A stretch of 64,000 bases of DNA, taken from Psychromonas sp. L1A2 (GTDB lineage: Bacteria > Pseudomonadota > Gammaproteobacteria > Enterobacterales > Psychromonadaceae). Location of the stretch: positions 1,240,001-1,304,000 of the forward strand of contig NZ_WUAG01000001.1 of the NCBI RefSeq assembly GCF_009828855.1, in the 5' to 3' direction. The notes under the pieces are model-generated. The model had not been told where the DNA came from, made no database searches, and was given only the letters and a program-made list of their open reading frames with translations. The position numbers and the translations under genes were made by a program. Shown here piece after piece: positions 13,512-32,135 of this stretch. Position 1 is the first letter of the stretch, and the number at the start of each line of letters is the position of its first letter.

Positions 13512-13519
13512 AATGTATC

Positions 13520-14107: not shown

Positions 14108-14115
14108 GTGACTTG

Positions 14116-14484
14116 CTACTCTTGAAATGCATCTTGTATCCATTGTGGCTGTGTTGTTTTTTCGCTGATTGCAACGACATCAAAACGGCAATAGGGCTCA
14201 TTATCTAATTGTGATAAATAATGCTTTGCCGTTTTAATTAATTTTTTTTGTTTTTGTAGTGTAACTGATGCTGTTGCACCACCATAGTTTTGATTCTTGC
14301 GGTATCTTACTTCAATAAACACTAAAGTGTCATTATCAGACATGATTAAATCTATTTCACCATACCGACAATAAAAATTTTGACAGACAAGCAACAAACC
14401 TTGCGCCTTTAAAAACGCTAAAGCTTGTTGCTCATATTGAACACCAATGGAATTACTGGCTTGAAATAGACGAGGTAGCTTCAA
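14116..14484 (-). CDS. yraN: UPF0102 family protein YraN
   Basis: A 122-residue protein of the YraN/UPF0102 family, which has a restriction-endonuclease-like fold. The conserved core is visible: RYGEIDLIMSDNDTLVFIEVRYR, with Glu, Asp and ExR residues in a PD-(D/E)XK-like arrangement. The N-terminus overlaps the end of lpoA by 32 bp, an arrangement common for this pair. Its cellular function is unsettled. Confidence 0.9.
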   Translation of the reverse strand: MKLPRLFQASNSIGVQYEQQALAFLKAQGLLLVCQNFYCRYGEIDLIMSDNDTLVFIEVRYRKNQNYGGATASVTLQKQKKLIKTAKHYLSQLDNEPYCRFDVVAISEKTTQPQWIQDAFQE

Positions 14485-16498: not shown

Positions 16499-16596
16499 AC
16501 TAATTCAAGATAAGTTTTCAGATAGGTATCAAGATACCTATAGTGTAATATTGCAGACCTAGTTAAACAATCCTTAACACTTTAATAGAGTCAAAT

Positions 16597-17457
16597 ATGT
16601 CTGAAAAAAATCAATTAAATAACGAAGTAAGTGCAAAATTGTATATTGTCGCCACTCCTTTGGGCAATATCGGCGATATTACTTACCGTGCCGTCGAAAT
16701 ATTAAAAAACGTCGATTTAATTGCAGCAGAAGATACTCGACATAGTGGTAAATTATTAAGCTACTATCAAATCAGTAAACCAACTTTCCCTCTTCATGAT
16801 CATAATGAGCGTCAACGTGGCAGCGTATTGATTGAAAAAATCAAAGCTGGGCAATCTGTTGCACTGATCTCAGACGCGGGGACGCCATTAATTAGTGACC
16901 CCGGTTATCATTTAGTCAATGAATGTCGTGAAGCAGGTGTTGATGTTGTTCCTGTACCAGGTGCTTGTGCAGCAATTACCGCTCTTTCAGCTGCTGGTTT
17001 ACCATCAGACCGTTTTTCTTTCGAAGGGTTCTTACCAGTGAAAGAAAAAGCTAAAACAGAAAAATTGACTGCATTAGCGGAAGAAACACAAACCATGATT
17101 TTTTACGAATCTCCTCGTCGTATGCAAGATACGGTAAAACATATAATTAATATCATGGGCGCGGATAGAAAGTTAGTCGTTGCGCGTGAACTCACTAAAT
17201 TATTTGAATCATATTACGTATTACCAGCTGGCGAAATGTTGGAGTGGTTAGAACAAGACACCAATCATTGCCGTGGTGAATTTGTATTAATGGTGGGAGG
17301 GGCAAGTAAAAATGAAGACGCTTTATCAGTAGAAGCGATTAAAACGCTGACATTATTGAAAAAAGAGTTACCTCTTAAGAAAGCCGCAGCGATAACTGCT
17401 GAAATACATCATCTTAAGAAAAACGACTTATATAAATGGGGCCTAGAAAACTTATAA
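16597..17457 (+). CDS. rsmI: 16S rRNA cytidine-2'-O-methyltransferase RsmI
   Basis: RsmI 2'-O-methylates C1402 of 16S rRNA. 286 residues. Tetrapyrrole-methylase fold: LYIVATPLGNIGDITYRA at the N-terminus, AAEDTRHSGKLL, and the SAM-binding loop ISDAGTPLISDPG. Divergent from lpoA as in E. coli. rnpB follows directly on the same strand. Confidence 0.97.
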   Translation: MSEKNQLNNEVSAKLYIVATPLGNIGDITYRAVEILKNVDLIAAEDTRHSGKLLSYYQISKPTFPLHDHNERQRGSVLIEKIKAGQSVALISDAGTPLISDPGYHLVNECREAGVDVVPVPGACAAITALSAAGLPSDRFSFEGFLPVKEKAKTEKLTALAEETQTMIFYESPRRMQDTVKHIINIMGADRKLVVARELTKLFESYYVLPAGEMLEWLEQDTNHCRGEFVLMVGGASKNEDALSVEAIKTLTLLKKELPLKKAAAITAEIHHLKKNDLYKWGLENL

Positions 17458-17484
17458 TTCTTTTCTCGTATCACTGCAAAGCGC

Positions 17485-17512
17485 TTGTTATCTATAATGG
17501 TTTCCGTATAAT
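17485..17512 (+). promoter_or_regulatory. Sigma-70 promoter of rnpB
   Basis: TTGTTA (17485-17490) and TATAAT (17507-17512) are separated by 16 bp. The -10 box ends 8 bp before the predicted 5' end of the RNA at 17520, followed by a GC-rich start region typical of stable RNA promoters. Confidence 0.75.
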
Positions 17513-17519
17513 CCGCCGC

Positions 17520-17889
<370 letters not shown>

Positions 17890-17902
17890 AAACCTTTGAT
17901 TT

Positions 17903-17933
17903 ACAAGGTCTCGTAGCTAATGCGAGGCCTTGT
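17903..17933. other. Hairpin at the island's left edge
   Basis: ACAAGGTCTCG (17903-17913) pairs with CGAGGCCTTGT (17923-17933) with one G:T pair. There is no T-run after it, so it is unlikely to be an efficient terminator, and it overlaps the integrase start. Confidence 0.45.
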
Positions 17934-19449
17934 GAAACAAACTGTGCAACAATCTGTGTTACAAAAAATTCCCCATACTTATCAACGTAATGGTATGTAT
18001 TACTTCTGCTATCGCGTACCTAAAGTTATCAGAATATTTTATTCATTCCCTTCTATGATTCGACAGAGCCTCCACACTCGCTCAGCAATTATTGCTTCTT
18101 CTATGGTGAATTCTTTCGTTTCTGCATTTAATGAAATCAAGGTGCATTGCGTGACCAAGAAAATAAAAAAAAATATTAAACAGGAATTTATATCTATCCC
18201 TACTTTTTTGGGTGATCTAATAATTGATCAGGGAAATGGAGATATTGAAGCTGAAAAAATTGCTGCGAAAGAGATTCTTAAAGATAATCCTCACCTTACC
18301 GATCCCGATAGTGCAAGAAAATTGGCTGAGATTCAGACTAAACTAGTTACGAATGAAAATGATGCTTCTTTAAATAAAAAAATTAAACAGAAAAAAAACT
18401 TTAAACCAACCATTAAAGATATGTACCAAAAGTGGGAGGCTTCATGGGACGAACAGGGCTTAATCGCTAAAGAGCAAGAGAACCATAGACGAAATATGGC
18501 AATCTTGTTGTACTTACATGGTGATAAACAACCGGACTCAATAACTCCAAAACAAGCAGATGAAGTTTTATCAATCGCTAAGCGTATGCCAAGAAGTAAT
18601 ATGAAGCCATATAATAGTATGGTTAAGTCCTCTTTTAGCAGAGAGCTTAGAGAAGAGGGATACATCCAAAGAATAAAAATGGTGCTTAATAATGAGGTTC
18701 CGGAAACAGATCGAGTAGCCAATTTTTCACCTGTTTTAAAATCCTGCCAAGGCTTTTATAGTTGGATGGCTTCAAAATATATTGTAAATGATAAACCATT
18801 TAATGAACGACGAATTAAGAGTTCAAAAAAGAACAAAAGAGGGGCATTTACGGTATCAGAATTACAGCGAATAGTTGATTTTAGTTCCCAACAAACAGAT
18901 GCAAATAAAAAGTTTATTCCACTGATCATGGCTTATACCGGAATGCGTAACTCCGAAATCCAAGAACTAGAACGGAGTCAGTTTAAGGTTTGTGAAGATA
19001 GTGGCTTATTTCATATCCAAGTAGGGATCACCACTTCAGAAGTTGGTAAAGCAAAAACTGAGGCAGGTATTAGACGTGTTCCTTTAGCGCAACCCTTGAT
19101 AGATTTGGGCCTTATGGAATACATTAATTCATTTTCACAGCCTAATGAGCGAGTTTTCTCTGTGCCTAATAAATGGTTAACAAGGTACTATGGAAATACA
19201 CTTAAAAAAGCATGTCAATTACCTGAAATTGATAGTTCTGGGCATATGTTATCAATGTACTCTACCAGACATAGCGTTGTTTCGTTTATTCGCTCGCAAG
19301 GTGCTAATGAAGCAATATCTACGGCAATTGTCGGGCATGAGAGCGGGTCTTCTGTACATGATGGCTATACAAAACGAGCGTTATTCCCACTGAATGAACT
19401 TAAATCATATGTAGATGGATTACCGTGGGTGATTAACTCGTCAAACTAA
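17920..19449 (+). CDS. Tyrosine integrase of the rnpB island
   Basis: A 509-residue tyrosine recombinase, likely responsible for integration and excision of the island. The N-terminal segment (YQRNGMYYFCYRVPKVIR) resembles the DUF6538-type domain of island integrases. Catalytic residues are visible: Arg343 in AYTGMRNSEIQEL, Arg450 in MYSTRHS with Tyr447 at the usual HxxR histidine position, His473 in VGHE and the nucleophile Tyr483 in DGYTK. Start is uncertain: the ATG at 17920 lies inside a hairpin and a GTG at 17932 is also possible. It starts 31 bp after attL with no clear promoter of its own. Confidence 0.92.
   Translation: MRGLVKQTVQQSVLQKIPHTYQRNGMYYFCYRVPKVIRIFYSFPSMIRQSLHTRSAIIASSMVNSFVSAFNEIKVHCVTKKIKKNIKQEFISIPTFLGDLIIDQGNGDIEAEKIAAKEILKDNPHLTDPDSARKLAEIQTKLVTNENDASLNKKIKQKKNFKPTIKDMYQKWEASWDEQGLIAKEQENHRRNMAILLYLHGDKQPDSITPKQADEVLSIAKRMPRSNMKPYNSMVKSSFSRELREEGYIQRIKMVLNNEVPETDRVANFSPVLKSCQGFYSWMASKYIVNDKPFNERRIKSSKKNKRGAFTVSELQRIVDFSSQQTDANKKFIPLIMAYTGMRNSEIQELERSQFKVCEDSGLFHIQVGITTSEVGKAKTEAGIRRVPLAQPLIDLGLMEYINSFSQPNERVFSVPNKWLTRYYGNTLKKACQLPEIDSSGHMLSMYSTRHSVVSFIRSQGANEAISTAIVGHESGSSVHDGYTKRALFPLNELKSYVDGLPWVINSSN
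17930..17964. repeat. Integrase arm-type repeats next to attL
   Basis: Three direct copies of TGTGNNACAA spaced 11-12 bp: TTGTGAAACAAACTGTGC, then GTGCAACAA and TCTGTGTTACAA. The same motif pair occurs near attR at 31769-31790, as expected for arm-type integrase binding sites. Confidence 0.55.
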
Positions 19450-19769
19450 GCCCTCAATTTATTGACTCTATTTTTAAATAAGTCCCTTTAGAAGTGATGA
19501 AACCGGTAAATATTTGTGCCGGTTTATCAAAGCCGCTAAAAGCCCTTTCTCAATAATATCGAAGCATTTTTTAGATAGTAATCGTATTGATACCAAAATC
19601 GTTACACGCTTACTGTTAATAGTAAAATTTTAGCTACCTAAAGATAGAACTATAATCCAACACAAATACCACTAAGAGCTTACTTAAGTTATTGATAGAA
19701 AAGGGTTATTTGACTTTCATTTGATTTTGTTTTTAAATGCTAACTTCACTAATGGAGGGGTAAATAGCT
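19450..19769. other. Intergenic region integrase to GIY-YIG gene
   Basis: No gene seen. A short inverted repeat AAACCGG/CCGGTTT (19500-19525) lies after the integrase but lacks a T-run. Confidence 0.5.
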
Positions 19770-21107
19770 ATGAAGTTAAAAAGCATTAAGTATGAAGGCA
19801 AAGAATGGGATGATTATAAAGAGTTAGTTGCCCATTCTAATCGACGTAAGCAAAGCTATAAGCAAATAACCTGCGCACAATTCGATGCTAAATGGAGAAA
19901 GTGGCAAATAAACAACTCTGATCTTGAGCCTACAGATGAACTTATATCTGCTTGGTTAACACCCCGTGCAGCAGCTAGTTCTCTTTCTTACAAAGGTATT
20001 CGATACAACGGCCCAAGCGCTCTGTATGAGGCTAATATAGAGATTGCCAATATTGGCTTTAAAGCATTTCACCTTAATCTAAGAAGTAACCTAACTGATA
20101 TAGACGACGATTTTATTACTGCATGTTTAAAAGGAACAAGGGTCGTTAGTAATGAAGGGACTCGGATTTCAAAGTATCGTAAAATTTGGCAAGATAAAGA
20201 AGAGCCAAAAGTAAAATGGCCTATGGTTAGTCAACGGATAACCAATCACCGAAAGGTCTTTGGTCGTGAACCTACGAAACAAGGTGTGGAAGATTATTGT
20301 GTTAGGCAGGATGCTCAATGGCTTGATGAAGGTAGCCCAAACTTTGGGCTCAGTAGAAAAAAATTCTTTGAGTCTCTTACAGCCATCCAATTTAAATGCT
20401 CGTTTAAATCATGGAAAAGAAAAATTAGACGTCATCTTAAATTAACTGAGTCCATAAATGAGGATCTAGCCATAAAACTTGCTGAGATACCTTTTAATAT
20501 AGATTGCGTTGTCGGTATCCTTTATGAAGTAACAAACTCCGTTAACGACAAAAAGTACATTGGTATTACTACACAGACATTAGAGGAACGTAAACGTGGG
20601 CACTTTAGGCAAGCTATTCGTAAAAGCCATTCCTCTGGTTCACTTCAAGAGGCTATTATCCAATTCGGTAAAGGTAGTTTTATATTCAATGAAGTTGGCA
20701 AATTTAACTCTCTTGATGAGTTAGAAAATGCGGAAATACAACGAATAAGAAAAGAGAATACTCTTTCACCGTATGGTTACAATCTAGACCCTGGTGGTAA
20801 AGGTGTAAATGGATTTTCTAATCCAATGTTTTACCGAGGTGTAGCTTACAAGAACCTTTCATCATTAGCTGAAATACTTAATTTAAACCTTAAGCGAATT
20901 GAGAGTAGATTGCGCCTTAGGTGGACTTTAAAAGAGGCAATCGTAGTACCCAAAGGTATGTACTTAAAAACATATCGAAATGGCCATAAAATTCCATTAA
21001 AAATAAAAGCTATGAATGCCGGTATCCCATACAAAAAAGTCCATGAACGGATGAGCGCAGGGTGGACTGAAAATGAAGCTCTTGAAAAAGAGCCTCGATG
21101 CTACTGA
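19770..21107 (+). CDS. GIY-YIG endonuclease with repeated DNA-binding modules, split by an in-frame TGA
   Basis: A 445-residue protein resembling GIY-YIG homing-type endonucleases. The catalytic domain starts near residue 248 (VGILYEVTNSVNDKKYIGIT, then TLEERKRGHF with the conserved Arg) and runs to YGYNLDPGGKG. Both sides carry NUMOD-like modules; those at the C-terminus end in similar signatures (RLRLRWTLKEAI, RMSAGWTENEAL). The TGA at 21105-21107 is followed in the same frame by 46 more codons to a TAA at 21246-21248, encoding another module ending RLKLKWPIDKIF. So the gene seems truncated by a nonsense codon. AGGGG lies upstream of the ATG. Confidence 0.75.
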   Translation: MKLKSIKYEGKEWDDYKELVAHSNRRKQSYKQITCAQFDAKWRKWQINNSDLEPTDELISAWLTPRAAASSLSYKGIRYNGPSALYEANIEIANIGFKAFHLNLRSNLTDIDDDFITACLKGTRVVSNEGTRISKYRKIWQDKEEPKVKWPMVSQRITNHRKVFGREPTKQGVEDYCVRQDAQWLDEGSPNFGLSRKKFFESLTAIQFKCSFKSWKRKIRRHLKLTESINEDLAIKLAEIPFNIDCVVGILYEVTNSVNDKKYIGITTQTLEERKRGHFRQAIRKSHSSGSLQEAIIQFGKGSFIFNEVGKFNSLDELENAEIQRIRKENTLSPYGYNLDPGGKGVNGFSNPMFYRGVAYKNLSSLAEILNLNLKRIESRLRLRWTLKEAIVVPKGMYLKTYRNGHKIPLKIKAMNAGIPYKKVHERMSAGWTENEALEKEPRCY

Positions 21108-21248
21108 AGGCCTAATGCAATCCCTATTACTGTTAATGGGAAGCGCTTTAACTCAATCCGTGAAGCCGCGCTATTTCATAAAATACCAGAAGGGACAGTT
21201 CGTAAAAGATTAAAGCTAAAGTGGCCGATAGATAAGATTTTTCAGTAA
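21108..21248 (+). pseudogene. Detached C-terminal module of the GIY-YIG gene
   Basis: In-frame continuation after the TGA: ITVNGKRFNSIREAALFHKI is a NUMOD1-like DNA-binding helix module, followed by RLKLKWPIDKIF and TAA. It has no start codon or ribosome site of its own, so it is either lost coding capacity or reached only by readthrough. Confidence 0.65.
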
Positions 21249-21408
21249 AATTCGCCAATATAAAGCGAACACTGTGCCGATAATCATTACTTTCAATTTA
21301 CTAGTTAGGTTAATACTTTAACTTTATAAGGCTAAAAGAGGCATATAGAGCCTTAGAATATACATTCTTTTATTGCAGTAAAACGACTTGATTTAAATTT
21401 AATAATGG

Positions 21409-21438
21409 CAAAAGGCAAGATGCGACCCCATTGATATT
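21409..21438. repeat. Short direct repeat flanking umuDC, left copy
   Basis: CAAAAGGCAAGATGCGACCC and ten more bases match 25 of 30 positions with 23344-23373 downstream of umuC. A degenerate third version (CAAGGCAAGACCACAGACCC) is near 27965. Confidence 0.55.
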
Positions 21439-21538
21439 CACTCGAAGTAAATAGAATATACGATACTATAAAAAGAATTCACCTGCGTATAAATGAAATT
21501 CTAACTTGTACTTAACCTGATCTAACTTATACTATTAA

Positions 21539-21554
21539 CTGTTTTTATATACAG
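21539..21554 (+). promoter_or_regulatory. LexA (SOS) box of umuDC
   Basis: CTGTTTTTATATACAG fits the gammaproteobacterial LexA consensus CTGT-N8-ACAG exactly, with the AT-rich core. It ends 9 bp before the umuD ATG, where LexA would block transcription or initiation. Confidence 0.9.
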
Positions 21555-21563
21555 TGGTTATTT

Positions 21564-21974
21564 ATGAAGTTTATTCCAATTACTGCAAGCGCGGGTATTA
21601 CTGGTTTTGAAAGTCCAGCAAGCGATTACCTACAACTCCCGCTAAGCTTAGATGAATTATTAGTAGAGCATCCAAGTGCCACATTTATTGGCAAGGCAGA
21701 CGGCCATTCCATGAAAGGTGTTGGTATATTTAATGGTGATATTTTAATTGTAGATCGTTATGTTAACGCTAAAAATAATGATGTCATCGTTGCTAATTTT
21801 AACGGTGAATTTATTTGTAAAATATTAAATATTACCGAAAGGCTTTTATTATCTGCTAACCCTCAATACCCAGCGATGACTATTAGCGATAGTGATCAAT
21901 TTACTATTGAAGGCGTGGTTATTCGCTCGATTCGTTGTCATCGTGAAAGTCACCTACTTGAGGCAAGCCTCTGA
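21564..21974 (+). CDS. umuD: SOS mutagenesis protein UmuD
   Basis: UmuD is cleaved with RecA* help to UmuD', the accessory subunit of polymerase V. Peptidase S24 catalytic residues are seen as Ser49 in GHSM and Lys86 in CKIL. The likely self-cleavage bond is Ala10-Gly11 (SAGITGF), giving an N-terminal arm of about 10 residues against 24 in E. coli. 136 residues. A perfect LexA box precedes it and umuC overlaps its stop by one base, so both are SOS-induced together. Confidence 0.95.
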   Translation: MKFIPITASAGITGFESPASDYLQLPLSLDELLVEHPSATFIGKADGHSMKGVGIFNGDILIVDRYVNAKNNDVIVANFNGEFICKILNITERLLLSANPQYPAMTISDSDQFTIEGVVIRSIRCHRESHLLEASL

Positions 21975-23227
21975 TGTTTGCATTGGTTGATGCAAATTCC
22001 TTTTATTGCAGTGCAGAACAAGTCTTTAGACCTGAGTGGCGCGGTAAACCTATTATTGTACTCTCTAACAATGATGGTTGTATCGTAGCGGCCAACAAGC
22101 AAGCCATTGCATTAGGTGTTAAAAAATTCTATCCCTTTTTTAAAGTAAAAGATCTTTGTGAACGAACGGGCATTATTGTGTGCTCTTCAAACTATGAATT
22201 GTATGCCGATTTATCACATAAAATGATGCAAGTGATAGGGCGCTTTGCACCGTCTCAACATATCTATTCCATTGACGAATCCTTTCTGAGTTTTGCTGAC
22301 TGCGAACACGCAATACCCGATCTCGCCTTACACGCTCAAGCCATTCGCAAAGCCGTGTGGAAAGAAACGCGTTTACCTGTTTGTGTTGGTATTGGAGATA
22401 CGCTTACCTTAGCTAAAGTAGCGAATCATGTCGCTAAAAAGTGGAATGGTTTTAATGGTGTTTGCGTATTGGATGAAAAATTAAAAAAGGACGTTTTTAC
22501 ACAATTATCTCCTTCAGATGTATGGGGAATTGGTAGAAAAACCAATGAAAAATTAAAGCAAAATAAAATTGTTACCGTTGAACAATTAAGAAAATTAGAT
22601 ACTCGTTTTTTACCCAAAGGGTTTAATGTTGAATTGAGCCGCACTATTAACGAATTAAATGGTATCGCTTGTAAAACATGGGATGGTGTAAGGGCTGATA
22701 AGTTACAAATATTTTCAACAAGAAGTATGGGGAAACGGATAATCGATGCTCAAAATCTAAATCAAGCACTTGCTAAACATGCGGCTATTGCTGCGATAAA
22801 AGCAAGAGAACAAAAATCGCTTTGTGGCACTTTGATGTTGTTTGCCGCGAATAGTCCTTTCGATGAAACACCGTACAGTTATAAAGTGATCAAGCAATTT
22901 GCTGCACCAACAAACGATACTTCTCAAATCTTGAAAGTGATTAGTGAAAATATGCATCACTTATATAAATCAGATGTAGCCTATTACCGAGTGGGAGTAG
23001 GACTTTTAAATCTAAGTAGTGAAACACATCAACAAGGAGACTTGTTTAATCCATCTAAAGACAATATCAAGTTAATGGGGGCGATAGATTCCATTAACCA
23101 ACGCTATGGCAGCTGTAGTCTGTTTTTTGCCGCCCAAGGTGTCGATGAACCATGGTCAATGCGTAGAGAGCTGTTAACGCCTCAATATACTAGCAATTGG
23201 CGTCACCTCCCGAAGTTTACTTGTTAA
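21974..23227 (+). CDS. umuC: DNA polymerase V catalytic subunit UmuC
   Basis: Y-family translesion polymerase. 417 residues, close to E. coli UmuC (422). Catalytic acidic residues lie in FALVDANSFYCSAE and in YSIDESFLSF. The palm motif NNDGCIVAANKQAIALGV is typical of UmuC, and the C-terminal little-finger region ends normally. The ATG overlaps the umuD TGA (TGATG), a translational coupling. It is part of the rnpB island, so it may add to or replace a chromosomal copy. Confidence 0.96.
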   Translation: MFALVDANSFYCSAEQVFRPEWRGKPIIVLSNNDGCIVAANKQAIALGVKKFYPFFKVKDLCERTGIIVCSSNYELYADLSHKMMQVIGRFAPSQHIYSIDESFLSFADCEHAIPDLALHAQAIRKAVWKETRLPVCVGIGDTLTLAKVANHVAKKWNGFNGVCVLDEKLKKDVFTQLSPSDVWGIGRKTNEKLKQNKIVTVEQLRKLDTRFLPKGFNVELSRTINELNGIACKTWDGVRADKLQIFSTRSMGKRIIDAQNLNQALAKHAAIAAIKAREQKSLCGTLMLFAANSPFDETPYSYKVIKQFAAPTNDTSQILKVISENMHHLYKSDVAYYRVGVGLLNLSSETHQQGDLFNPSKDNIKLMGAIDSINQRYGSCSLFFAAQGVDEPWSMRRELLTPQYTSNWRHLPKFTC

Positions 23228-23343
23228 AGAAAGTGCTGATTTTATCGTTGTTTGGATAAGTATCTAAGTCGTAATGGGCACAAAGCGAGTTATAGAAGCG
23301 ACTCGAATTAGCTGTGGAAAAACACATATCAGCCTAATAAGAC

Positions 23344-23373
23344 CAAAAGGCAAGACACGACCCTATTAACATT
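23344..23373. repeat. Short direct repeat flanking umuDC, right copy
   Basis: CAAAAGGCAAGACACGACCC and ten more bases, in the same orientation as 21409-21438 (25 of 30 identical). Together they bracket the umuDC pair. Confidence 0.55.
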
Positions 23374-23381
23374 TTCTTAAT

Positions 23382-24638
23382 TTAAGTATTCTTCACAACC
23401 ACAAAATCATAGTCTGCATTATCATCTTTAATGAAACTAAGCCTTTGGACAGTAATATCACAAATATGCTTATAGCCCATCTTATGCGCTAAATGTTCAG
23501 GTGATATTAAATCATCACTTTCCATCAAAACTACCCTACGAGTACCTTTATCCGTTTTATTTAACTCTCTAGCCGCTTGAGCTGTTGTTCCAGAACCAGC
23601 AAAAAAATCAATTATTATATCGTCAGGTTGTGCCATTTGATCAATAATATCTTTTATGTATTCAAGTGGTTTTGGAGTATCAAAAATCTTATCTCCAAAT
23701 ATTTTTTTGATTTCGAGTGTCGCTCGTTCTGTGTAATATGAGCTTTTCTCCCATAAAGTCCTTATTTTTTTACGTTTGTCTTTTGATGAATAGTTCTTAA
23801 CGTAAATTGTTCCCTTAGGACTAGCGTATAGTTGCCATTCTCTTTTTTCAGCAGTTTCTTTACCCCAAAGCCAACGTCTATCGATCCCTTGTGAGTCAAC
23901 AGGAAAAATTTCTGTAAGCTCTGGCGCAGGATTTACAAACACTTTTCCATTGCTATTAACGTAAAGAGGATAATACATATTTGGTCGATCTGTTCTTAAA
24001 CTAGCTTGACCTTTTTTACGAAAAAGTCCGTCAACTCTGTAATAACCATATTCATCTTTTTTATCATAGCTATCCAGATCGTCAGGTGCTCCACGTAGGA
24101 TTGCTTTTTTAGTCTTCCCATACACCATTAGATATTCATGATTTGTTGCAATATTTTTCTTACTACCTTTTCCATTTTTAGAACGGCAAACAACAATATT
24201 TCCTAATAAATTTTCCTCACCAAATACATGATCCATCAAGATTTTTAAATATGGAAACTCATAGTCATCAATACTGATTGCGATAACACCTGTATCTTTA
24301 AGAAGCTCATGCGCTGTTACAAGTCGGGGAAGCATAAATGATAACCATTCAGAATGCTTTCCCCAAGCTCCCGTATTAGTGCCATTGCGAGAGTCATTGA
24401 AGATAAACTTGCTCCCACAATTGTACGGAGGATCGATATAACAAAAACCAATTGTTGATTTGTGGCTAGGAAACATTTTTAATAAATACTCTAAGTTATC
24501 ACCACATAACAAAGTACAATCTTGGTTAAATTTCGGTATTGTGGGAATTGGAGGTGTAAACATATCACCCTGGCTATGCTTTGAAAGCCCTAGTAACATT
24601 GATAGGCTATTGATTTTTTTATATATATCTTGATTCAT
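23382..24638 (-). CDS. DNA adenine methyltransferase of an R-M system
   Basis: Beta-class N6-adenine (or N4-cytosine) methyltransferase of 418 residues. Motif IV DPPYNCGSKF (Asp69-Tyr72) comes before the SAM-binding motif I FFAGSGTTAQA (about residues 343-353), the order that defines the beta class and resembles Type III Mod and related Type II enzymes. GGGAAG precedes the ATG. It is divergent from the neighbouring gene, the probable cognate restriction enzyme, with 69 bp between starts. The target sequence cannot be read from the DNA. Confidence 0.9.
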   Translation of the reverse strand: MNQDIYKKINSLSMLLGLSKHSQGDMFTPPIPTIPKFNQDCTLLCGDNLEYLLKMFPSHKSTIGFCYIDPPYNCGSKFIFNDSRNGTNTGAWGKHSEWLSFMLPRLVTAHELLKDTGVIAISIDDYEFPYLKILMDHVFGEENLLGNIVVCRSKNGKGSKKNIATNHEYLMVYGKTKKAILRGAPDDLDSYDKKDEYGYYRVDGLFRKKGQASLRTDRPNMYYPLYVNSNGKVFVNPAPELTEIFPVDSQGIDRRWLWGKETAEKREWQLYASPKGTIYVKNYSSKDKRKKIRTLWEKSSYYTERATLEIKKIFGDKIFDTPKPLEYIKDIIDQMAQPDDIIIDFFAGSGTTAQAARELNKTDKGTRRVVLMESDDLISPEHLAHKMGYKHICDITVQRLSFIKDDNADYDFVVVKNT

Positions 24639-24707
24639 TTTCTTCCCTTAATAATAGAAGAAAGTATACTCGTTTCTTCGCTAATTTATAGTGTAGAGGA
24701 AGTAAAA

Positions 24708-26318
24708 ATGAAGTTACCACAGGAAAATTTAACAGTAAAAGAGCAGCTTGCAGAATTTGACCAATGGCTAACACCAAAGCTCGAACGCATTAAAGATACT
24801 GATAAATTCAATAGTGAAGTAGAATTATTAAGTGAATGTATTAAAACTCTGTCCAAGGATCTGAATCAATTCATAGATATGGACCTTTGCTCTATCGATT
24901 CTTTGGTTGAGGTAATTTGCAAAGTAAGTTCTTCCTATACAAATGGTTCAAACTTTTTTGAAGATGAAGCTTCATTAACTAATTTCTATATTTCATTCTT
25001 CAATCTGCTTTTCTTAGCAACTGGTGCAACTGACAATAATTTAAAAAATCATTTTCTCATTAAGTTAAAAGAAGACGATATATCCTCAAAAATACCAAAA
25101 CGAGGAACTGGTAAGAAAAACATTAAATTCTCCTTAAGGGCATTACCAAGCACAACTACATCAGATTATATAGCTAAATTGTTAGCATCTTGTTATGTAG
25201 GGAGTATGTCAGAATACGATAATATCGTATCAACAGAACCTACTTTTTCATTAAATGAATATCTTAAAATATATCTAGCCGAGTACATATCACTAATTCT
25301 TGAAGATGAAGAGGAATTGCTACAACTGTGGGTAATTTGTAAATCATTTATCCACCTCAGCAAAGAATCAAAAGACATGGCAAGATTGCTAATAAATTCA
25401 TGTACTATTTTTAAAGTTAGAGGTTCAGTTTCTGCTTCTGGAGGTCATATTCCAGAGAACCTCCTTAGAGAAAAATTAGTAGAGATTGGTTTGATAGCTG
25501 ATAGAGACTTTAATACCTCTGATGCCATAGTAGGTGAAGAAATTATAGAAGAGTCAGGAAAGCGGAAGAAAAAAACTAGAGCCTATGATTTTATCTTACC
25601 TTATAAAATTGAGACTTGGGAACCAAAGCTATTTATCCAATCGCAATTTTATGCTGGTGATAGTGGAAGTCTATCTCATAAAGTTGTAGATCAAACATCT
25701 GCCTCTAGAGATTTTACAAAGTCTAAGTACCCTAGTGCTAGGTTTATAGAATATCTTGATGGCGCAGGATATTTCGCTTCTCTTCGAGGAGATCTTGAGC
25801 ATATGTTGACTATGGAAGACACTCACTCTTTCATTCAAGTAAAGTCTATTCTGATTCGTTTACGAAGAGAGTTTCAAAGTATATTATTCCTAACGCCAGT
25901 AGAATTTGAGCATGCAATCATTGAAACTACATCGGGAAACCGTAGAGAAGTTCTTAATATTTTGTTATCTCAAGGGTACTCCCTGGATGAAATTTCACGT
26001 GTTGAAAATGATTTAATTGAACGAAACTTTATTTCTATTGACGCTCAATCATATAAAATAAGCCCGTTAAGAATTGAGTATGCTAGAAAGCTTTTTTTAT
26101 TAGATATTGCAGGAATTGAGGGTTATGTAATTACAGCTCATGAACGAAAATCAGGTAAGTTTATATTATTACCAGGCTTTGGAGCTGGTTACGGTTTACT
26201 TGGATCTACACTAGCCACTCTCGCATGTGAGAAAGCCAAATTTATAACAATTACTCCAACGCAGTACGAAGAGGATTTAGAGTGGTTAATAGAAGAGAAA
26301 GTGATTTCTAGAAAATAG
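24708..26318 (+). CDS. Probable restriction endonuclease partner of the methyltransferase
   Basis: A 536-residue protein from the ATG at 24708, which follows GAGGAAG; a longer frame from 24630 would overlap the methyltransferase start and has no ribosome site. I do not recognise the family by name. The stretch YDFILPY followed by LFIQSQFYAGDSGSLSHK could be a variant PD-(D/E)XK core with Gln in place of Glu. The basis for the call is context: a large, non-helicase protein divergent from a solitary methyltransferase is usually the cognate nuclease. No ATPase or helicase motifs, so Type III is unlikely. Confidence 0.6.
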   Translation: MKLPQENLTVKEQLAEFDQWLTPKLERIKDTDKFNSEVELLSECIKTLSKDLNQFIDMDLCSIDSLVEVICKVSSSYTNGSNFFEDEASLTNFYISFFNLLFLATGATDNNLKNHFLIKLKEDDISSKIPKRGTGKKNIKFSLRALPSTTTSDYIAKLLASCYVGSMSEYDNIVSTEPTFSLNEYLKIYLAEYISLILEDEEELLQLWVICKSFIHLSKESKDMARLLINSCTIFKVRGSVSASGGHIPENLLREKLVEIGLIADRDFNTSDAIVGEEIIEESGKRKKKTRAYDFILPYKIETWEPKLFIQSQFYAGDSGSLSHKVVDQTSASRDFTKSKYPSARFIEYLDGAGYFASLRGDLEHMLTMEDTHSFIQVKSILIRLRREFQSILFLTPVEFEHAIIETTSGNRREVLNILLSQGYSLDEISRVENDLIERNFISIDAQSYKISPLRIEYARKLFLLDIAGIEGYVITAHERKSGKFILLPGFGAGYGLLGSTLATLACEKAKFITITPTQYEEDLEWLIEEKVISRK

Positions 26319-28453
26319 AATAAATATTATATCGGTATAGTTTTCCAGTTTATTTATCACTTCTTGGCTACACTATTCCCTTAGCACATACTTTCGCAAG
26401 GCATCCACTGGACTTAGTGTGGCTAGTTGTTAAATTACGTGTTGCAACAACAGTCTAATTTCCACATGAGCACTTACACAAATATTTTATATCATTACGT
26501 TTAACTGTCGCTTTGATGACATTTAGTATACTAAGGAAGGAAGAGGATCAGGTCTTTCATTTTGCGTTTTAATAATTAGCTTTTAAATCGCTATGGAGGC
26601 GTTGGCGACTTAGTCAGACTATAGAAAAAGCTATTAAATTTTTAATTTAATTACAGTCCAAATTTTAGCTTAATAATTACTATCATGGTTTGTATAAGAG
26701 CGGTTCAAATTGAACAAACTAAATGACAACACTATATAGACACTTATATTTCACCTAGGGTTTCCATATATAATATACTTCTATATGCGATTTTAAGACG
26801 TTCTGAGTATGTTAATACATTTATTGCTACAACTAAGAACTCTTATTATAGAACGATTCTGTTGCTCTATGCTCTACTTTGCCCCTCTCTATTCAATAAC
26901 AATGTTGGAAATGCAGAACTAGCAACATCAATCATTAAATACTCTAAAAAGGTCTGTCTTGTTTTACCGAAATTTTCCTACATACCACTACACCTCGTGT
27001 TTTATCTGGTCTCTTGAATTTATAACTGAGGTGGCAATGTATAAGGGTGCCAAAGATTGACAACTTATACTGCCTTGACTCCATAAACATATTCCGGATA
27101 TTCCTAGGACTCCGGATGTTACATAGATTTGAGCTTAGAAGTAATTCTCTATTTGATTCTTATGCGCTCGCCAAGATAAAACGGTTTAATGTAAAACCAC
27201 TCGTTTTTTCAGTTTTTTAAATATACAGCGCTTACCGACCTTAATTCACCGCACCGAATGCTATCTAATAGCGCACTTAATGCTATCTAATGTAGTTTTT
27301 TTTTAAAAAAAAGCCTGTTTAAAGGTAGCATTAAGGTAGCGTTTAGGTAGCATAGTTGGCAGTAATTAACCGACATGATGATTGAACTGGTATCTTCAAA
27401 GATCGTTATGGGTGTCATCTGGGATTTGTATTAATAAGGCACTCATCTGAGTGAAGTCATTAATACCATCGGAATTTTTAATTACTACAAATTTTTATAG
27501 ACACAAAGATTACTAATAAATAACACTTTCAAATGCGCGAAATAACGAGCATAGCTGCAACGTAAGAGCGTTTTTAATGATAAATTACATTATGCTAGCA
27601 AAAATCATAAAATCGTCACAGTGAGCTATTAAGGGCTTGGCTAGTAATTAAATAGTAACGTTCATACCATCAGAATATTTTAATGCGGTTTTTATTCATT
27701 CAGAACACTGGTCGCATAATTTACCTTAATTAAACCCGTATTTAGATACAGCGCTAATAAACAAAAAAGTTAGTCCACCCATTACTTCAAAGATATATCA
27801 TTAATTCAATATTAAGCATGAAATGTTTTTAAATTATCAGGTGCACAACCAGAGAGGCTTACGAATGCGGTGTAGAAGCTCCATAATCAGTCTGTGCTTC
27901 GTTTTCTTGTGTTAACCCAATCAATGCGAGCAAAGCCCGCTAGAGTTGCTAAAATACCACTTTACAAGGCAAGACCACAGACCCCATTTAACTACATAAT
28001 TACAGATGTCATTTTTGACATATCTATTAGCCACTTATGGATGACCCATGTTAATACAAAGTTTGAATATTCTAGTAGAACACACGCATGCAAAATATAT
28101 TTGAAATTTAATTGTTGGTATGATTTTTGCTATTAGTTATTTTAAGTCTTTTAAGTGTTATATATATATAGTAGAAACACAAAAAAGTGATGATATGCGG
28201 AAATTGAATATAAATAAAATCGTAAGTGATTGAAATTAAATGAATTATAACCCTTAGCTCACTCCGTTCGCTTAGAAACAGCGGCTTCGCCTTGTTTCTG
28301 CTTAAAAACTATTCCGCTTTCATAATAAAATAAGTAATTCATTTGGATTTTATTGAAGAGTAATAATCTTATCTTAACAATGAAAATTAATTCTTAAGCC
28401 GGTTCTATATCAAACCCACCTAAAGCTTGTTCGTTTAATAATTCGTTAAGAAT
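26319..28453. other. 2.1-kb gene-free region in the island
   Basis: No convincing gene on either strand; the one 80-codon frame (27894-28136) has no ribosome site or recognisable motif. It is AT-rich with many stops and is probably decayed or regulatory DNA. Structure seen: a phased GCTATCT/GGTAGC repeat cluster (27257-27351), a degenerate copy of the umuDC-flanking repeat near 27965, and a hairpin around 28273-28300 (AGAAACA...TGTTTCT). Confidence 0.6.
27257..27351. repeat. Helically phased inverted repeat cluster
   Basis: AATGCTATCTAAT occurs twice exactly (27257-27269, 27279-27291; 22-bp period). On the other side of a T/A tract, GGTAGC occurs three times at 27324, 27335 and 27346 (11-bp period) in the opposite orientation. 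The first right-hand copy is GGTAGCATTA, the inverse of the left motif with one change. Confidence 0.6.
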
Positions 28454-28912
28454 TTACTTACTTCTCATCATGCATGATTTTACATTATTCTGATGCCACT
28501 TTCGGTCGTTAAAGGTTCTAATTCCTTTTTCATTTAACTGATTAGCAATAAAATGATCTGAATGGCCATTTATTCGCATTTCGCTGATAAATATCACTAT
28601 TTTTTCTTTATTGTAAGGGAGTGTCTCTTTTTCCTTTAACGTTGGCTCTAAAATTCCATCTAAAATGTCATCTAAATCGTCTAGGTTTTCATTGGCTTTT
28701 GAAGTTGATTTAGCTTCGGAAATATCTTGGAATTGTTGTTCTGTTATATTAACTCTCATTCGCTTTAACTGTTCTATACAAGCCTTTTTAACCCAAGATG
28801 AAAACGTATCAAAAGGTTCTTTATTATTCTCTATTGCTTCAATTAAAACACGTTCAAAACGTATGTTTTTTGTTATCGATTTTTTGTTTTTGTTTGTATT
28901 TATAACAGACAT
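28454..28912 (-). CDS. Small putative DNA-binding protein
   Basis: A 152-residue protein of unknown function. The N-terminal part (KNIRFERVLIEAIENN, then FSSWVKKACIEQLKR) reads like a ribbon-helix-helix or similar short DNA-binding fold. An acidic linker follows. The C-terminus (ISEMRINGHSDHFIANQLNE, then GIRTFNDRKWHQNNV) matches the IAxxLNxxGIxTxxGxxW pattern used for DNA binding by the recombinase domain of large serine recombinases. Its start faces an array of 11-bp repeats at 28959-29035, which may be its operator. Reads as an autoregulated DNA-binding protein; this is inference. Confidence 0.6.
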   Translation of the reverse strand: MSVINTNKNKKSITKNIRFERVLIEAIENNKEPFDTFSSWVKKACIEQLKRMRVNITEQQFQDISEAKSTSKANENLDDLDDILDGILEPTLKEKETLPYNKEKIVIFISEMRINGHSDHFIANQLNEKGIRTFNDRKWHQNNVKSCMMRSK

Positions 28913-29484
28913 GAAAAATATCCTAGTTTAGTATTTATTAGTATGTAGTATAACAGAGTGTATACACACTGTATACGCACTGTATACGCACTGTATACGC
29001 ACTGTATACACTCTGTATACGCACTGTATACACACGTATAGACACTGCGTGTACAGTGTAAGTGCACTGTGTGCACAGTATTTACGGTGAGTAAAGTAAT
29101 GCAAAATAAAAATTCGCGTATTAATATCTAAAATATTTGGAAGTTAGAGAGATAAATTAGATTATTGATATTCATTGAGATTGTTATTATTTGGTCGAAA
29201 GGGGTAATTTTATGCAGATGAGGTATTCTATTTAGAAAAGCATGGTTTTATAAACCACTTACTTTACCTCTTTTTCATACATCAACCTTGTGCATATTTA
29301 GGATTAAAAAAATTTACTGACTCTCACTGAAAGCTACTTTAACTATTAAGTTATTATTAAGAAATAGTTTCTACATTATTTCATAAGTCATATACAAGTC
29401 CTTAACTCATACAATGGATAGCCTATCTAGTTGCCATATCCATATGAGTTAAATTTCTTTTTACAGTGGTTAATTCAGTAGTAA
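28913..29484. other. Intergenic region with 11-bp repeat array
   Basis: No gene. Holds the promoter region of the small DNA-binding protein gene and the 11-bp array (28959-29035) with degenerate flanks to about 29080. I see nothing else. Confidence 0.6.
28959..29035. repeat. Array of seven 11-bp TGTATACRCWC repeats
   Basis: Seven consecutive units start at 28959, 28970, 28981, 28992, 29003, 29014 and 29025. Each contains the palindrome GTATAC; the last three positions vary slightly. Degenerate continuation includes TGCGTGTACAG and the palindrome-rich GTGCACTGTGTGCACAG up to about 29080. The 11-bp period places each site on the same face of the helix. Confidence 0.85.
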
Positions 29485-30132
29485 TTACATTTGTATATTC
29501 GGGCACTGTAACTTGTTATTTTTCCTCCATCGATAATAGGTTGCTCTACCTACCCCATATGTTTTTAATGCATCGTTCAGCTTTTCAATTTCGGCCGATA
29601 CAGCTTTAAATACTTTCTCACATTTATTTGCTGTTTCCGGATCAGCTTTTCGTCCTTTAAATTTATCTCTATTTGCTTCGATACCTTCTTGTTGACGTCT
29701 ACGCCGATCTTCGTAATCTTTTGAAGCCGTGGCTGCCAATATCTCAATCAACATACTATTAACAGACTCAAGAATACGCTGTTGCATTTCATCTTGATTG
29801 AGATTGAGTACTTGAAAGCTTGTAGGTACATCACAAGCGACAATATTTAAACCTTTGCCATCGATAGCCTGTTTTAACTCTTTCCACTTAGATGATGTTA
29901 AACGAGTTAGCCTGTCAATCTGCTCAAGTAGAATAATGTCGTTTTGCTTTGAGTCATTTAAGAGTTTTGTTAGTTGTGGTCTGGCAACTTTACGGCCTGA
30001 GTAGTTTTCAACGTAATACACCGCATTATCTAGGTCTAATTTTTGCTTCTTAGCTTCCGCTATTATGTATTCTTTAGCTCGTTCGGCATCTTGGTCTGAA
30101 GTCGATGCTCGTAAATAGATTCTGATAGTCAT
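29485..30132 (-). CDS. Serine recombinase (resolvase family)
   Basis: A 215-residue small serine recombinase. The catalytic serine is Ser10 in IYLRASTSDQDAERAKE, with the resolvase core continuing through ILLEQIDRLTRL. The C-terminal helix-turn-helix is visible at the end (LKTYGVGRATYYRWRKNN). It probably acts in resolution or inversion within this or a former plasmid. The promoter side (30160-30258) contains repeats that may be its res/operator sites. A few hundred bp separate it from the 11-bp array. Confidence 0.92.
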   Translation of the reverse strand: MTIRIYLRASTSDQDAERAKEYIIAEAKKQKLDLDNAVYYVENYSGRKVARPQLTKLLNDSKQNDIILLEQIDRLTRLTSSKWKELKQAIDGKGLNIVACDVPTSFQVLNLNQDEMQQRILESVNSMLIEILAATASKDYEDRRRRQQEGIEANRDKFKGRKADPETANKCEKVFKAVSAEIEKLNDALKTYGVGRATYYRWRKNNKLQCPNIQM

Positions 30133-30480
30133 TACAACTCCTTTGTCTCAATTGAATAACTTAAATGATACGTTATCTTTTGAGTTGTTGCAATGTGGTA
30201 AATGAGACTAATTCGCCTAAGTATCAAAGGTTCTGGCTAAGTATACTTAAATGATACGGTCCGATAGACATCAGAGTTAATTCAAGATGGTCTATATAAC
30301 CATTACCCCCCTTATTCGATTAGTTGTGAGTTAAACACTTAGAAGAGGGGGAGGCGTGTCATATTCTGTAATTTTGCTCTCTGGTTTCTTTTCTACTTAC
30401 GTCTAGAATATATGTAACTACTAATACATTTCACTTATGGAGTTACTCCTATTAAAATTCAATTAAGAACGGATACTTAT
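30133..30480. other. Divergent promoter region of resolvase and endonuclease genes
   Basis: No gene. CTTAAATGATACG occurs twice exactly (30160-30172, 30246-30258), and CTAAGTATCA / CTAAGTATAC lie between them, the former an inverted relative. These are candidate resolvase binding sites controlling both divergent genes. Confidence 0.55.
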
Positions 30481-31224
30481 ATGAAGCCATTACAAAATTC
30501 ATTGATCAGCATACTTTTGTTAATACCTGCGAGCTCGTTTGCGGCTAATGAGACTATTCAATCATTCAATAAAGCAAAGAAGATACTTGAACGAGAAGTC
30601 TATCAAGACCATCGTATAACACTGTATTGCGGAGCTGAGTTTGATGATAAAAAACTGGTTACTCCACCTGAAGGTTTTACAACAGAGAAATTTCTTAAGC
30701 GCTCTAAAAAAATTGAATGGGAGCACGCTGTTCCGGCCGAAAACTTTGGTCGAACATTTAAAGAATGGCGAGATGGAGATGCCTTGTGTGTAAATAGCAA
30801 AGGCAAAGAATTTAAGGGGCGTCGTTGTGCTGAAAAGGTAAATGTAGAATATCGCTATATGCAGGCTGATATGTTTAATTTATACCCCGCTATTGGAGCA
30901 GTAAATGCTTTAAGAAGTAATTACAATTTTACTATGCAACCAAGTGAAGAAAGTGATTTTGGTAGTTGTGAAATGAAAATCGCTGATCGTAAAGCAGAGC
31001 CACCAGCAAGAGCAAGGGGGCGTATAGCTCGTACTTACTTGTATATGGATGAGACTTACAGCAGGTACAACATGAGTCGCCAACAGAAGCAGTTAATGAA
31101 TGCTTGGGATAAAATGTATCCGGTTGATAGTTGGGAATGCTTAAGAGTTAAAAGAATATCTAAACTACAAAACAGCAAAAATAATATCGTACAGAGCAGA
31201 TGTGAAGTGCAAAAACTATGGTGA
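30481..31224 (+). CDS. endA: Endonuclease I (EndA/Dns family), secreted
   Basis: A periplasmic or extracellular non-specific nuclease. Signal peptide of about 21 residues (SISILLLIPASSFAA). The His-Me finger catalytic motif is EWEHAVPAENFGR with His82, and the metal-site partner region is MFNLYPAIGAVNALRSNYNF. Several cysteines would form disulfides. 247 residues is typical. Its location just inside the right end of a DNA-modifying island is odd for a nutrient- or uptake-linked nuclease. A second, native copy elsewhere is possible. Confidence 0.93.
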   Translation: MKPLQNSLISILLLIPASSFAANETIQSFNKAKKILEREVYQDHRITLYCGAEFDDKKLVTPPEGFTTEKFLKRSKKIEWEHAVPAENFGRTFKEWRDGDALCVNSKGKEFKGRRCAEKVNVEYRYMQADMFNLYPAIGAVNALRSNYNFTMQPSEESDFGSCEMKIADRKAEPPARARGRIARTYLYMDETYSRYNMSRQQKQLMNAWDKMYPVDSWECLRVKRISKLQNSKNNIVQSRCEVQKLW

Positions 31225-31281
31225 AAAGAGGCCGCTAAAAGATTATAAAGTCTTCCTACTGCCTCAGTCTGGACGGTTAGG

Positions 31282-31629
31282 TTAGATGCACTTTATGTCC
31301 ATATAATACCAGTTCATTGTTACACCAATTGGAGTAGTACCCTCGACGATACTTTCATTAATAACGATTGGGTTTGGGCAATTAGGACGAAGTGTTTTGA
31401 TTATAAAAAGGCGATCATCAAGGTCGTTGGTATTAAAGTTAAAGTCATAAGCGGAACGAATTTGAGCTTTTATATCGTAACCTTCCGTTTTTGCAACTGA
31501 GGCTGGCATATCTGATAAATTAACGACTCCTGTTACTAATAGGTTACGTATTGCATGGGGACTGCTTGCACAACTTGTGATTGAACCGAGTACAAGTAGT
31601 AAAGCGCATATTTTGAGTCTTTTGGTCAT
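31282..31629 (-). CDS. Small lipoprotein of unknown function
   Basis: 115 residues. The signal peptide ends in a lipobox (ITSC) with lipidation near Cys20, so it is a probable lipoprotein. I do not recognise the mature region, which has no obvious domain. It lies convergent with the endonuclease gene and is the last gene before attR, so it belongs to the island. Coding is supported by the signal peptide and by lack of overlap with other genes. Confidence 0.7.
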   Translation of the reverse strand: MTKRLKICALLLVLGSITSCASSPHAIRNLLVTGVVNLSDMPASVAKTEGYDIKAQIRSAYDFNFNTNDLDDRLFIIKTLRPNCPNPIVINESIVEGTTPIGVTMNWYYMDIKCI

Positions 31630-31768
31630 TTTAGGTTTCTTCTGGGTTTTATGTGGAAATAATTAAACTTAAGGGGTAAAAAAAACATTATTTTAACCTC
31701 AATCTTTACTGTTTTAAAACAACTTCTTATCAAAAGTACTTTTTATTAAAGATTATCGAGTAACAATT

Positions 31769-31790
31769 TGTGCAACAAACTGTGTAACAT
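31769..31790. repeat. Integrase arm-type repeats next to attR
   Basis: TTGTGCAACAAACTGTGTAACA carries two direct copies of TGTGNNACA at 11-bp spacing, matching the set beside attL (17930-17964) in sequence, spacing and orientation. About 75 bp inside attR. Confidence 0.55.
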
Positions 31791-31861
31791 TCGGATAGGT
31801 ATTTTTATTTGGTGCTACACTAAACACTTATATATCAACTAACTTACTGCTGCGAGAGTTA

Positions 31862-31877
31862 GCTTATCGGCCAACTC
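31862..31877. repeat. attR of rnpB genomic island
   Basis: GCTTATCGGCCAACTC, identical to the rnpB 3' end at 17873-17888. The bases beyond (CAACC against TAAACC) diverge soon after. Confidence 0.9.
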
Positions 31878-31887
31878 CAACCATTCT

Positions 31888-31922
31888 AGCCCCTGTTTGC
31901 TTTATGCAAATAGGGGCTTTTT
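31888..31922 (+). terminator. Strong terminator beyond attR, probably the original rnpB terminator
   Basis: AGCCCCTGTTTGC (31888-31900) pairs with GCAAATAGGGGCT (31906-31918) with one G:T pair, followed by TTTTT. No gene on the + strand ends before it, and it stands 11 bp after attR, where the rnpB terminator would be if the island were removed. Confidence 0.8.
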
Positions 31923-31979
31923 CATTTCTATATGTTTAATTTACTATTAAATCACTTAAACCCAACCTCGAGCAGATCC

Positions 31980-32135
31980 TTACTCTCTATTATAGGTGCC
32001 TGCGGTTTTCCAAATGTTGATAAAGGAATCATGAACGACATCTTCAGCAAGAGGGTAGTTTTTTAATATTCTCACCACAACTGTGAGTAGCCTTGTTGCT
32101 TCTTGTTCGTAGAGTTGTATTGGAATACTGCCTTT
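31980..32135 (-). pseudogene. ECF sigma factor fragment
   Basis: Reading the minus strand, a 51-codon frame without a start encodes region 2 of an ECF-type sigma-70 factor: LYEQEATRLLTVVVRILKNY, then PLAEDVVHDSFINIWKTAGTYN. Both the N-terminus and regions 3-4 are missing. It follows the broken DUF3455 gene and is probably a deletion remnant of a sigma factor gene. Confidence 0.7.

Follow-up and report, generated by a model that had tools for sequence, protein, structure and literature searches.

What placed a 14-kb segment of DNA directly behind rnpB, the gene for RNase P RNA, in Psychromonas sp. L1A2, and is this essential ribozyme gene a target for mobile DNA elsewhere? We analysed the locus in a 64,000-nucleotide stretch of contig NZ_WUAG01000001.1 (positions 1,240,001 to 1,304,000; hereafter the window). 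An earlier note on this DNA had described the segment as a genomic island inserted at the 3′ end of rnpB. Our results make it very probable that the segment is a 14-kb integrative element of the genomic-island type, placed by its own tyrosine integrase (Int) at the last bases of rnpB. Its features are collected in Table 1.

Ends of the island and the site in relatives

A 16-bp repeat, GCTTATCGGCCAACTC, is present as exact copies at 17873-17888 and 31862-31877 of the window. The left copy, core of the left attachment site (attL), is the 3′ end of an RNA gene, and the integrase gene adjoins this same site, as in genomic islands at RNA genes. The integrase open reading frame (ORF) starts at 17920, so that the perfect repeat at both ends and the integrase start 31 bp inside the left one, both claimed in the earlier note, were borne out. 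When up to three mismatches were allowed, GCTTATCGGCCAACTC was matched twice in the window against 0.20 expected; 2 out of 100 shuffles likewise gave two matches. Over the whole genome (4.34 Mb, two contigs), the two island ends were the sole places with GCTTATCGGCCAACTC at zero or one mismatch, whereas the note had named a repeat common elsewhere in the genome as evidence against an island. The GC content is 34.9% in the island and 37.2% and 36.6% in the flanks, a small gap which says little alone.

A comparison with related genomes was performed, as the note had proposed. The sequence of one relative (G009) is 88.7% identical to window 12961-17891 along 4931 bases and then runs on with window 31862-31957. 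The two matches overlap by 19 bp holding the core and the intervening 14 kb are absent. In three other relatives (G023, G014, G017), rnpB is joined to an identical downstream junction, made of the core followed by CAACCATT and the terminator. These 3′ junctions were readable for rnpB loci on the + strand; loci in the other orientation, which were not turned, gave no core match. Overall, the island is absent from these four genomes and its ends are the two cores. The repeats, the complete rnpB and the empty site together confirm the 14-kb island at the 3′ end of rnpB. Separately from the island, about 2.9 kb of G009 (three ORFs, one of them sigma-factor-like by eye) are missing here at window position 31957, to the right of attR.

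The rnpB gene keeps its full Rfam match after integration because attL carries identical last bases. In the Rfam alignment, the core corresponds to GCUUA, unpaired in the structure line, then to the larger part of the 3′ strand of the closing helix, P1. The core is therefore made of bases that the ribozyme keeps.

In several relatives, rnpB is followed by tandem units of 137-153 bp that hold the rnpB 3′ end and the terminator (G023, G017, G016, G007; loci L148, L150, L051, L046). Similar units of 113 bp, long known in that species, are seen in E. coli (L095). Such repeats supply several near-copies of the attachment core and would be a substrate for homologous exchange, so that the ends might have been made by recombination between rnpB 3′-end copies rather than by Int. 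This origin is most improbable: the likeness of the two island ends hardly extends beyond the core (24 nt at 88%), the integrase gene abuts the core, and a second core ends 13 of 21 islands found at rnpB (see below). In another genome (L041, G018), two partial rnpB-like stretches at 2203-2343 and 6350-6488, covering the same part of the gene, lie about 4.1 kb apart with no listed integrase ORF between them.

Placement by Int having been retained, we asked whether the island can still move, and lean towards a positive answer. The integrase reading frame is open with no internal stop and residues R343, R450, H473 and Y483 are present. The two cores are identical and empty sites exist within the genus. 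On the other side stands a fixed relic, which would have integrated at rnpB likewise and then lost excision, thereby denying only present mobility; it is possible but the less probable of the two. Several observations weigh in its favour. Position 447 of the integrase, in box II, is a tyrosine, where tyrosine integrases usually have a histidine, and catalytic activity is putative. A 2.1-kb stretch, 26320-28450, has no ORF longer than 80 amino acids; it contains an inverted repeat at 27258-27353 and may reflect decay or an origin. No transfer genes were recognised in the ORFs scanned. Finally, decay occurs at this site. Of two other genomes of the genus with a kindred integrase at rnpB (G001, G005), G005 has it split over two frames, and in G022 an attL-like stretch is left that no integrase ORF follows. 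The integrase of P. antarctica likewise carries a tyrosine at the box II position; therefore, Y447 is not a private defect.

rnpB as a target of kindred integrases

In Shewanella, Marinobacterium, Marinomonas, an Alteromonadaceae, Rahnella, Siccibacter, P. antarctica and some E. coli genomes, an integrase 22-33% identical to that of the window lies directly 3′ of rnpB. Across 388 genomes of the order, a profile built from three rnpB-site integrases (A1) gave 14 non-self matches of at least 170 bits. Ten of these have rnpB directly upstream by BLAST (G194, G001, G350, G253, G056, G123, G319, G219, G205, G232); G194 and G001 belong to the profile itself, so that 8 of 12 count as new. The others follow a thiamine pyrophosphate (TPP) riboswitch (G199, G115) or neither RNA (G099, G377). 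Below 170 bits, none of the 15 loci fetched (L067-L081) has rnpB upstream.

A second query set (A2) comprised 11 rnpB integrases. Its named scan gave 49 loci, and 41 were examined (L136, L138-L142, L144 and L146 were left out). Ten of them follow rnpB, three of which (L099, L115, L121) are in genomes already in A2. By pattern, 20 lie directly after a TPP aptamer; four, in Alphaproteobacteria, have a tRNA shortly upstream, five form a group at another site and two have none of these. In E. coli, at least 80% of the integrase query was found in 18 of 5426 genomes and 60% in one more, with rnpB under the match in all 19; nearly all remaining matching genomes match solely the query stretch overlapping rnpB.

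We then looked at the islands themselves. After removal of a Marinomonas row (L120), for which the script anchor was misplaced, the survey of cores and folds comprised 21 rnpB islands. A second core was found in 13, with at most one mismatch (two in G232), giving spans of 4.7 to 14.0 kb. Among the other eight, L113, L114, L115 and L121 hit contig ends, L097, L088 and L038 show no clear second core, and G123 was searched over 3.9 kb only. Near-copies are present among the 21 (L082, L083, L095-L097 and L116 belong to them), so that this count and that of the hairpins given below do not represent independent events. In S. gelidimarina, the core of the window and the preceding G are identical at both island ends. 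A small serine recombinase is a frequent, though not universal, companion. It turned up in 13 of 14 rnpB islands looked at: by Pfam in the window (PF00239) and in L122, L130, L083, L084, L087, L089, L099 and L038, and by annotation in four E. coli islands.

Some points limit this picture. The samples given by the profile and the scan are not random. The integrase of G005, a weak match below 170 bits outside the 15 loci fetched, does sit at rnpB, and the bit-score divide is thus not clean. Moreover, in the island of Shewanella indica, which has the closest integrase, none of the five ORFs listed (two of them scanned) was recognised as a serine recombinase. With these points taken into account, rnpB is a recurrent target of kindred integrases in several families. 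The earlier note had called rnpB a less common attachment site. It may indeed be rare in general, but it recurs among the kin of this integrase. RNase P RNA suits as a site because the core coincides with its conserved 3′ end, which the molecule has to retain.

In a tree of 55 integrases, the 21 TPP-site rows form one clade (support 100/100). The 21 rnpB rows need two changes, being paraphyletic around the TPP rows and the "other" group, and all target labels together need five changes as compared to a shuffled mean of 26.5. The integrase of the window groups with rnpB-site integrases through its pairing with that of S. indica (support 100/99; 33% identity over 437 columns). The enterobacterial rows start at the first mechanical start codon inside rnpB, and their first residues are not real. 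That rnpB was the ancestral target is the simplest reading of this tree, not a proof, since support for the deep forks among marine rows is weak (80/65) and long branches come together.

The TPP-site sister group includes L090 (G199), L100, L103, L107, L108, L118, L124, L128, 13 further loci of the named scan, and E. coli L159 and L160. When Rfam was run on seven of its loci, the downstream aptamer was recognised in all seven and the upstream aptamer was also above gathering in five. At the six loci looked at, the right copy is followed by an ORF that is ThiM-like by eye. In the E. coli strains SCU-316 and H8, the integrase lies behind rcnR; the island includes a major capsid gene and stops short of the annotated TPP riboswitch and thiM. 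A third sister group is represented by L092 (G099) and L093 (Yersinia frederiksenii), with islands bounded by a 15- or 18-bp repeat (GACGCCTGGGAAGGC; GTCGCCTTCACAGGCGTC); the right-hand copy in L092 closely precedes an ORF that is RluB-like by eye.

In both rnpB- and TPP-site elements, int is directly downstream of the target RNA and co-directional with it, behind an element-borne hairpin or aptamer copy. One may speculate that int expression is gated by rnpB read-through, or by thiamine pyrophosphate in the sister clade. A broader, tentative proposal, which we regard as rather doubtful, would be an integrase lineage specialised in structured non-tRNA RNAs, with RNase P RNA as ancestral target across Gammaproteobacteria, a single switch to the thiM TPP riboswitch, and int gated by the target RNA. 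Target use and the grouping on the tree, within this proposal, are observed. In any case, the evolution of integrase target choice becomes testable on one tree, and further islands can be sought behind rnpB and within the thiM riboswitch. Neither use of rnpB across families nor the thiM-riboswitch sister clade was found in the open-licence literature, and no paper naming rnpB or a riboswitch as an integration site was found there, which does not establish absence from print.

The hairpin inside attL and a proposed mechanism

Integration displaced the terminator-like hairpin of rnpB behind attR. Just inside attL, a strong hairpin with a 16-bp stem is a candidate for its replacement. A 60-nucleotide fold with z < -4 was found directly 3′ of the core in 10 of the 21 rnpB islands, all with a correctly placed anchor. 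As a control, 2 of 400 random windows drawn from ten of the islands reached this value. The z-scores derive from mononucleotide shuffles, 200 for the island folds and 60 for the control windows. In S. gelidimarina, the attL hairpin is nearly identical in sequence to the host terminator behind attR, which suggests that an rnpB terminator was captured by the element.

A terminating role is weakened by three observations. The hairpin of the window has no T run; that of L114 is weak (z = -2.6); and none is found in the enterobacterial islands L082, L083, L095-L097, L116 and L130, nor in L084, L113 and L122. Because the hairpin of the window is without a T run and several islands are without a hairpin, we infer termination at attL rather than observe it. 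By eye, this hairpin also spans both possible starts of int, the ATG at 17920 and an in-frame GTG at 17932. It could therefore damp int translation from read-through RNA.

In elements that use tRNA or tmRNA genes, attP rebuilds the 3′ end of the target RNA gene. The island of the window resembles them in being inserted at the 3′ terminus of a gene for a structural RNA and differs by its target, which is RNase P RNA, or a TPP riboswitch in the sister clade. By the mechanism that we consider likely, Int would recombine attB in rnpB with an attP bearing the same bases, which would rebuild the essential RNase P RNA. The element-borne hairpin may then take over rnpB 3′-end formation and damp read-through into int. 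The island could excise as a circle, with an attP made of right end, core and left end.

Cargo, transfer and comparison with known islands

Table 1. Features of the rnpB island and its borders (window coordinates; aa, amino acids)
Feature	Position	Strand	Evidence
rnpB (class A RNase P RNA), still complete with the island in place	17520-17893	+	Rfam RF00010, 336.9 bits, model 1-367 of 367
attL core	17873-17888	+	Exact repeat; at 3′ end of RNase P RNA
Strong hairpin close inside attL, candidate for the new 3′ hairpin of rnpB	17900-17936	+	60-nt fold, z = -6.5
Tyrosine integrase, N-terminal DUF6538 domain	17920-19449	+	PF00589 and PF20172 above cut-off
28-bp imperfect repeat, left copy, candidate arm-type integrase site	17936-17963	+	Family D6, 86% identical to 31762-31789
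GIY-YIG nuclease, homing-endonuclease-like	19770-21107	+	PF01541; TIGR01453 below cut-off; PHROG homing endonucleases
LexA box CTGTTTTTATATACAG	21539-21554	.	9 bp before umuD; sole CTGT-N8-ACAG match in 17801-32000
umuD-like	21564-21974	+	PF00717; NF007621 above cut-off
umuC-like polymerase	21974-23227	+	PF00817, PF11799, PF13438
Type III-like N6/N4 DNA methyltransferase	23382-24638	-	PF01555; PADLOC MTase_III E 2e-75
562-aa protein without family match, possible restriction partner by position only	24630-26318	+	Library scans
Probable DNA-binding protein of 152 aa; N-terminus YlcI/YnfO-like, C-terminus with a fragment of a Recombinase domain	28454-28912	-	PF07508; NF041551 below cut-off; phrog_949, phrog_95
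Array of about eight 11-bp tandem repeats, upstream of the gene for the 152-aa protein	28959-29047	.	TRF, 8.2 copies
Small serine recombinase	29485-30132	-	PF00239; family also in 8 other rnpB islands with a candidate ORF scanned
Endonuclease I	30481-31224	+	PF04231; NF011716 below cut-off
115-aa ORF without family, lipoprotein-like start by eye	31282-31629	-	No match in Pfam, PADLOC, NCBIfam, PHROGs
28-bp imperfect repeat, right copy, candidate arm-type integrase site	31762-31789	+	Repeat family D6
attR core	31862-31877	+	Exact repeat; end point shown by empty site in G009
Terminator-like hairpin with T run, original rnpB one, now displaced behind attR	31888-31923	+	Sequence; equivalent place after rnpB in island-free relatives

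The cargo announced by the earlier note was recovered in large part. The GIY-YIG nuclease, umuDC with its LexA box (consensus CTGT-N8-ACAG), the methyltransferase, the serine recombinase, given there as a resolvase, and endonuclease I have family matches. In contrast, the restriction-modification pair is putative and suggested by position: for the 562-aa protein next to the methyltransferase, Pfam, PADLOC, NCBIfam, PHROGs and plasmid records gave no match, and PDB sequences gave only E values of 0.82 and 0.96. Endonuclease I is putatively secreted, judging its N-terminus by eye. The SOS-regulated polymerase V genes, the methyltransferase and the nucleases may be carried for mutation, defence or DNA competition.

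How such an island passes between cells was considered from its genes. Ten ORFs of the window island were scanned with Pfam and NCBIfam, a scan covering the longer ORFs, and seven of these also with PHROGs. No relaxase or type IV secretion family was found in them, and an integrative conjugative element was ruled out on this gene content. No packaging, capsid-remodelling or satellite replication family was found either. Transfer must therefore depend on something else and, since no transfer genes were recognised, would proceed via other elements or transformation.

Alternatively, the island might be a phage satellite, packaged by a helper phage. In favour of this idea, E. coli rnpB islands encode YagK/YfjJ-domain proteins, and capsid and tape-measure or other phage-like genes occur in the sister islands at TPP sites of two E. 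coli strains. For the window island itself it is unlikely: none of the ten ORFs matched a family for packaging, capsid or replication, and the integrase had no match in 50,697 phage records; 65 pattern matches to its relatives in viral contigs gave none that was confirmed. One weak partial match in the phage records was obtained with a TPP-site integrase. Turning to plasmids, nine records of the collection have weak partial integrase matches, one of which, the chromosome-sized record of E. coli H240, has rnpB upstream; the entire island had no match in plasmids by megablast.

Among the closest known systems is an islet of E. coli. PMC5422975 places the flk islet, which comprises the flagellin FlkA and the repressor FlkB, on GI10 of strain ECC-1470, credits it with unilateral H-antigen phase variation and attributes its first description to Feng et al. 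2008. In our data, ECC-1470 has an island directly 3′ of rnpB with a kindred integrase, a small serine recombinase, a flagellin and an adjoining 525-bp gene. From this gene content, we infer that the islet on GI10 is the rnpB island of ECC-1470. A YagK/YfjJ-domain protein and a flagellin are encoded in four E. coli rnpB islands. The flagellin gene has a short neighbour, whose annotation is flagellin repressor in three of these islands and "flagellar biosynthesis protein FliC" in the fourth, that of ECC-1470.

The ECC-1470 island shares with that of the window its site, a kindred integrase and a small serine recombinase. Nevertheless, other E. coli integrase forms are 28-29% identical to that of the window over 306-329 aa. 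The cargo is wholly unlike, no flagellin family being found with Pfam among the ten window ORFs, and the attL hairpin is absent from the three E. coli islands folded. By its integrase, the closest island is that of S. indica KJW27 (L098), whose core is one base off at attL and identical at attR and which has a hairpin in the matching place; it differs by its size (5.1 kb), its cargo (AAA ATPase, HATPase_c_2) and the lack of a serine recombinase among the listed ORFs. Overall, the window island works like a site-specific integrative element that leaves its essential RNA target whole. It adds a new and divergent representative to the rnpB-site islands, a group that also includes the E. coli island compatible with the flk islet. 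A marine island with SOS and defence functions is thus tied, by site and integrase, to one fitting a flagellar phase-variation islet, and the essential gene for RNase P RNA serves kindred mobile islands as a recurrent attachment site.

Two further arrangements were noticed in the cargo. The 152-aa protein beside the 11-bp repeats looks like a small DNA-binding regulator; it has matches in 4 of 246 other genomes searched, limited to its N-terminus. The layout of gene and repeats (28454-29047) resembles that of plasmid partition sites, and a ParR- or StbA-like unit for partition or mobilisation would be a tentative reading. Lastly, umuDC is flanked inside the island by an imperfect 54-bp direct repeat (72%; 21400-21453 and 23335-23388), as if the gene pair had arrived as a unit.

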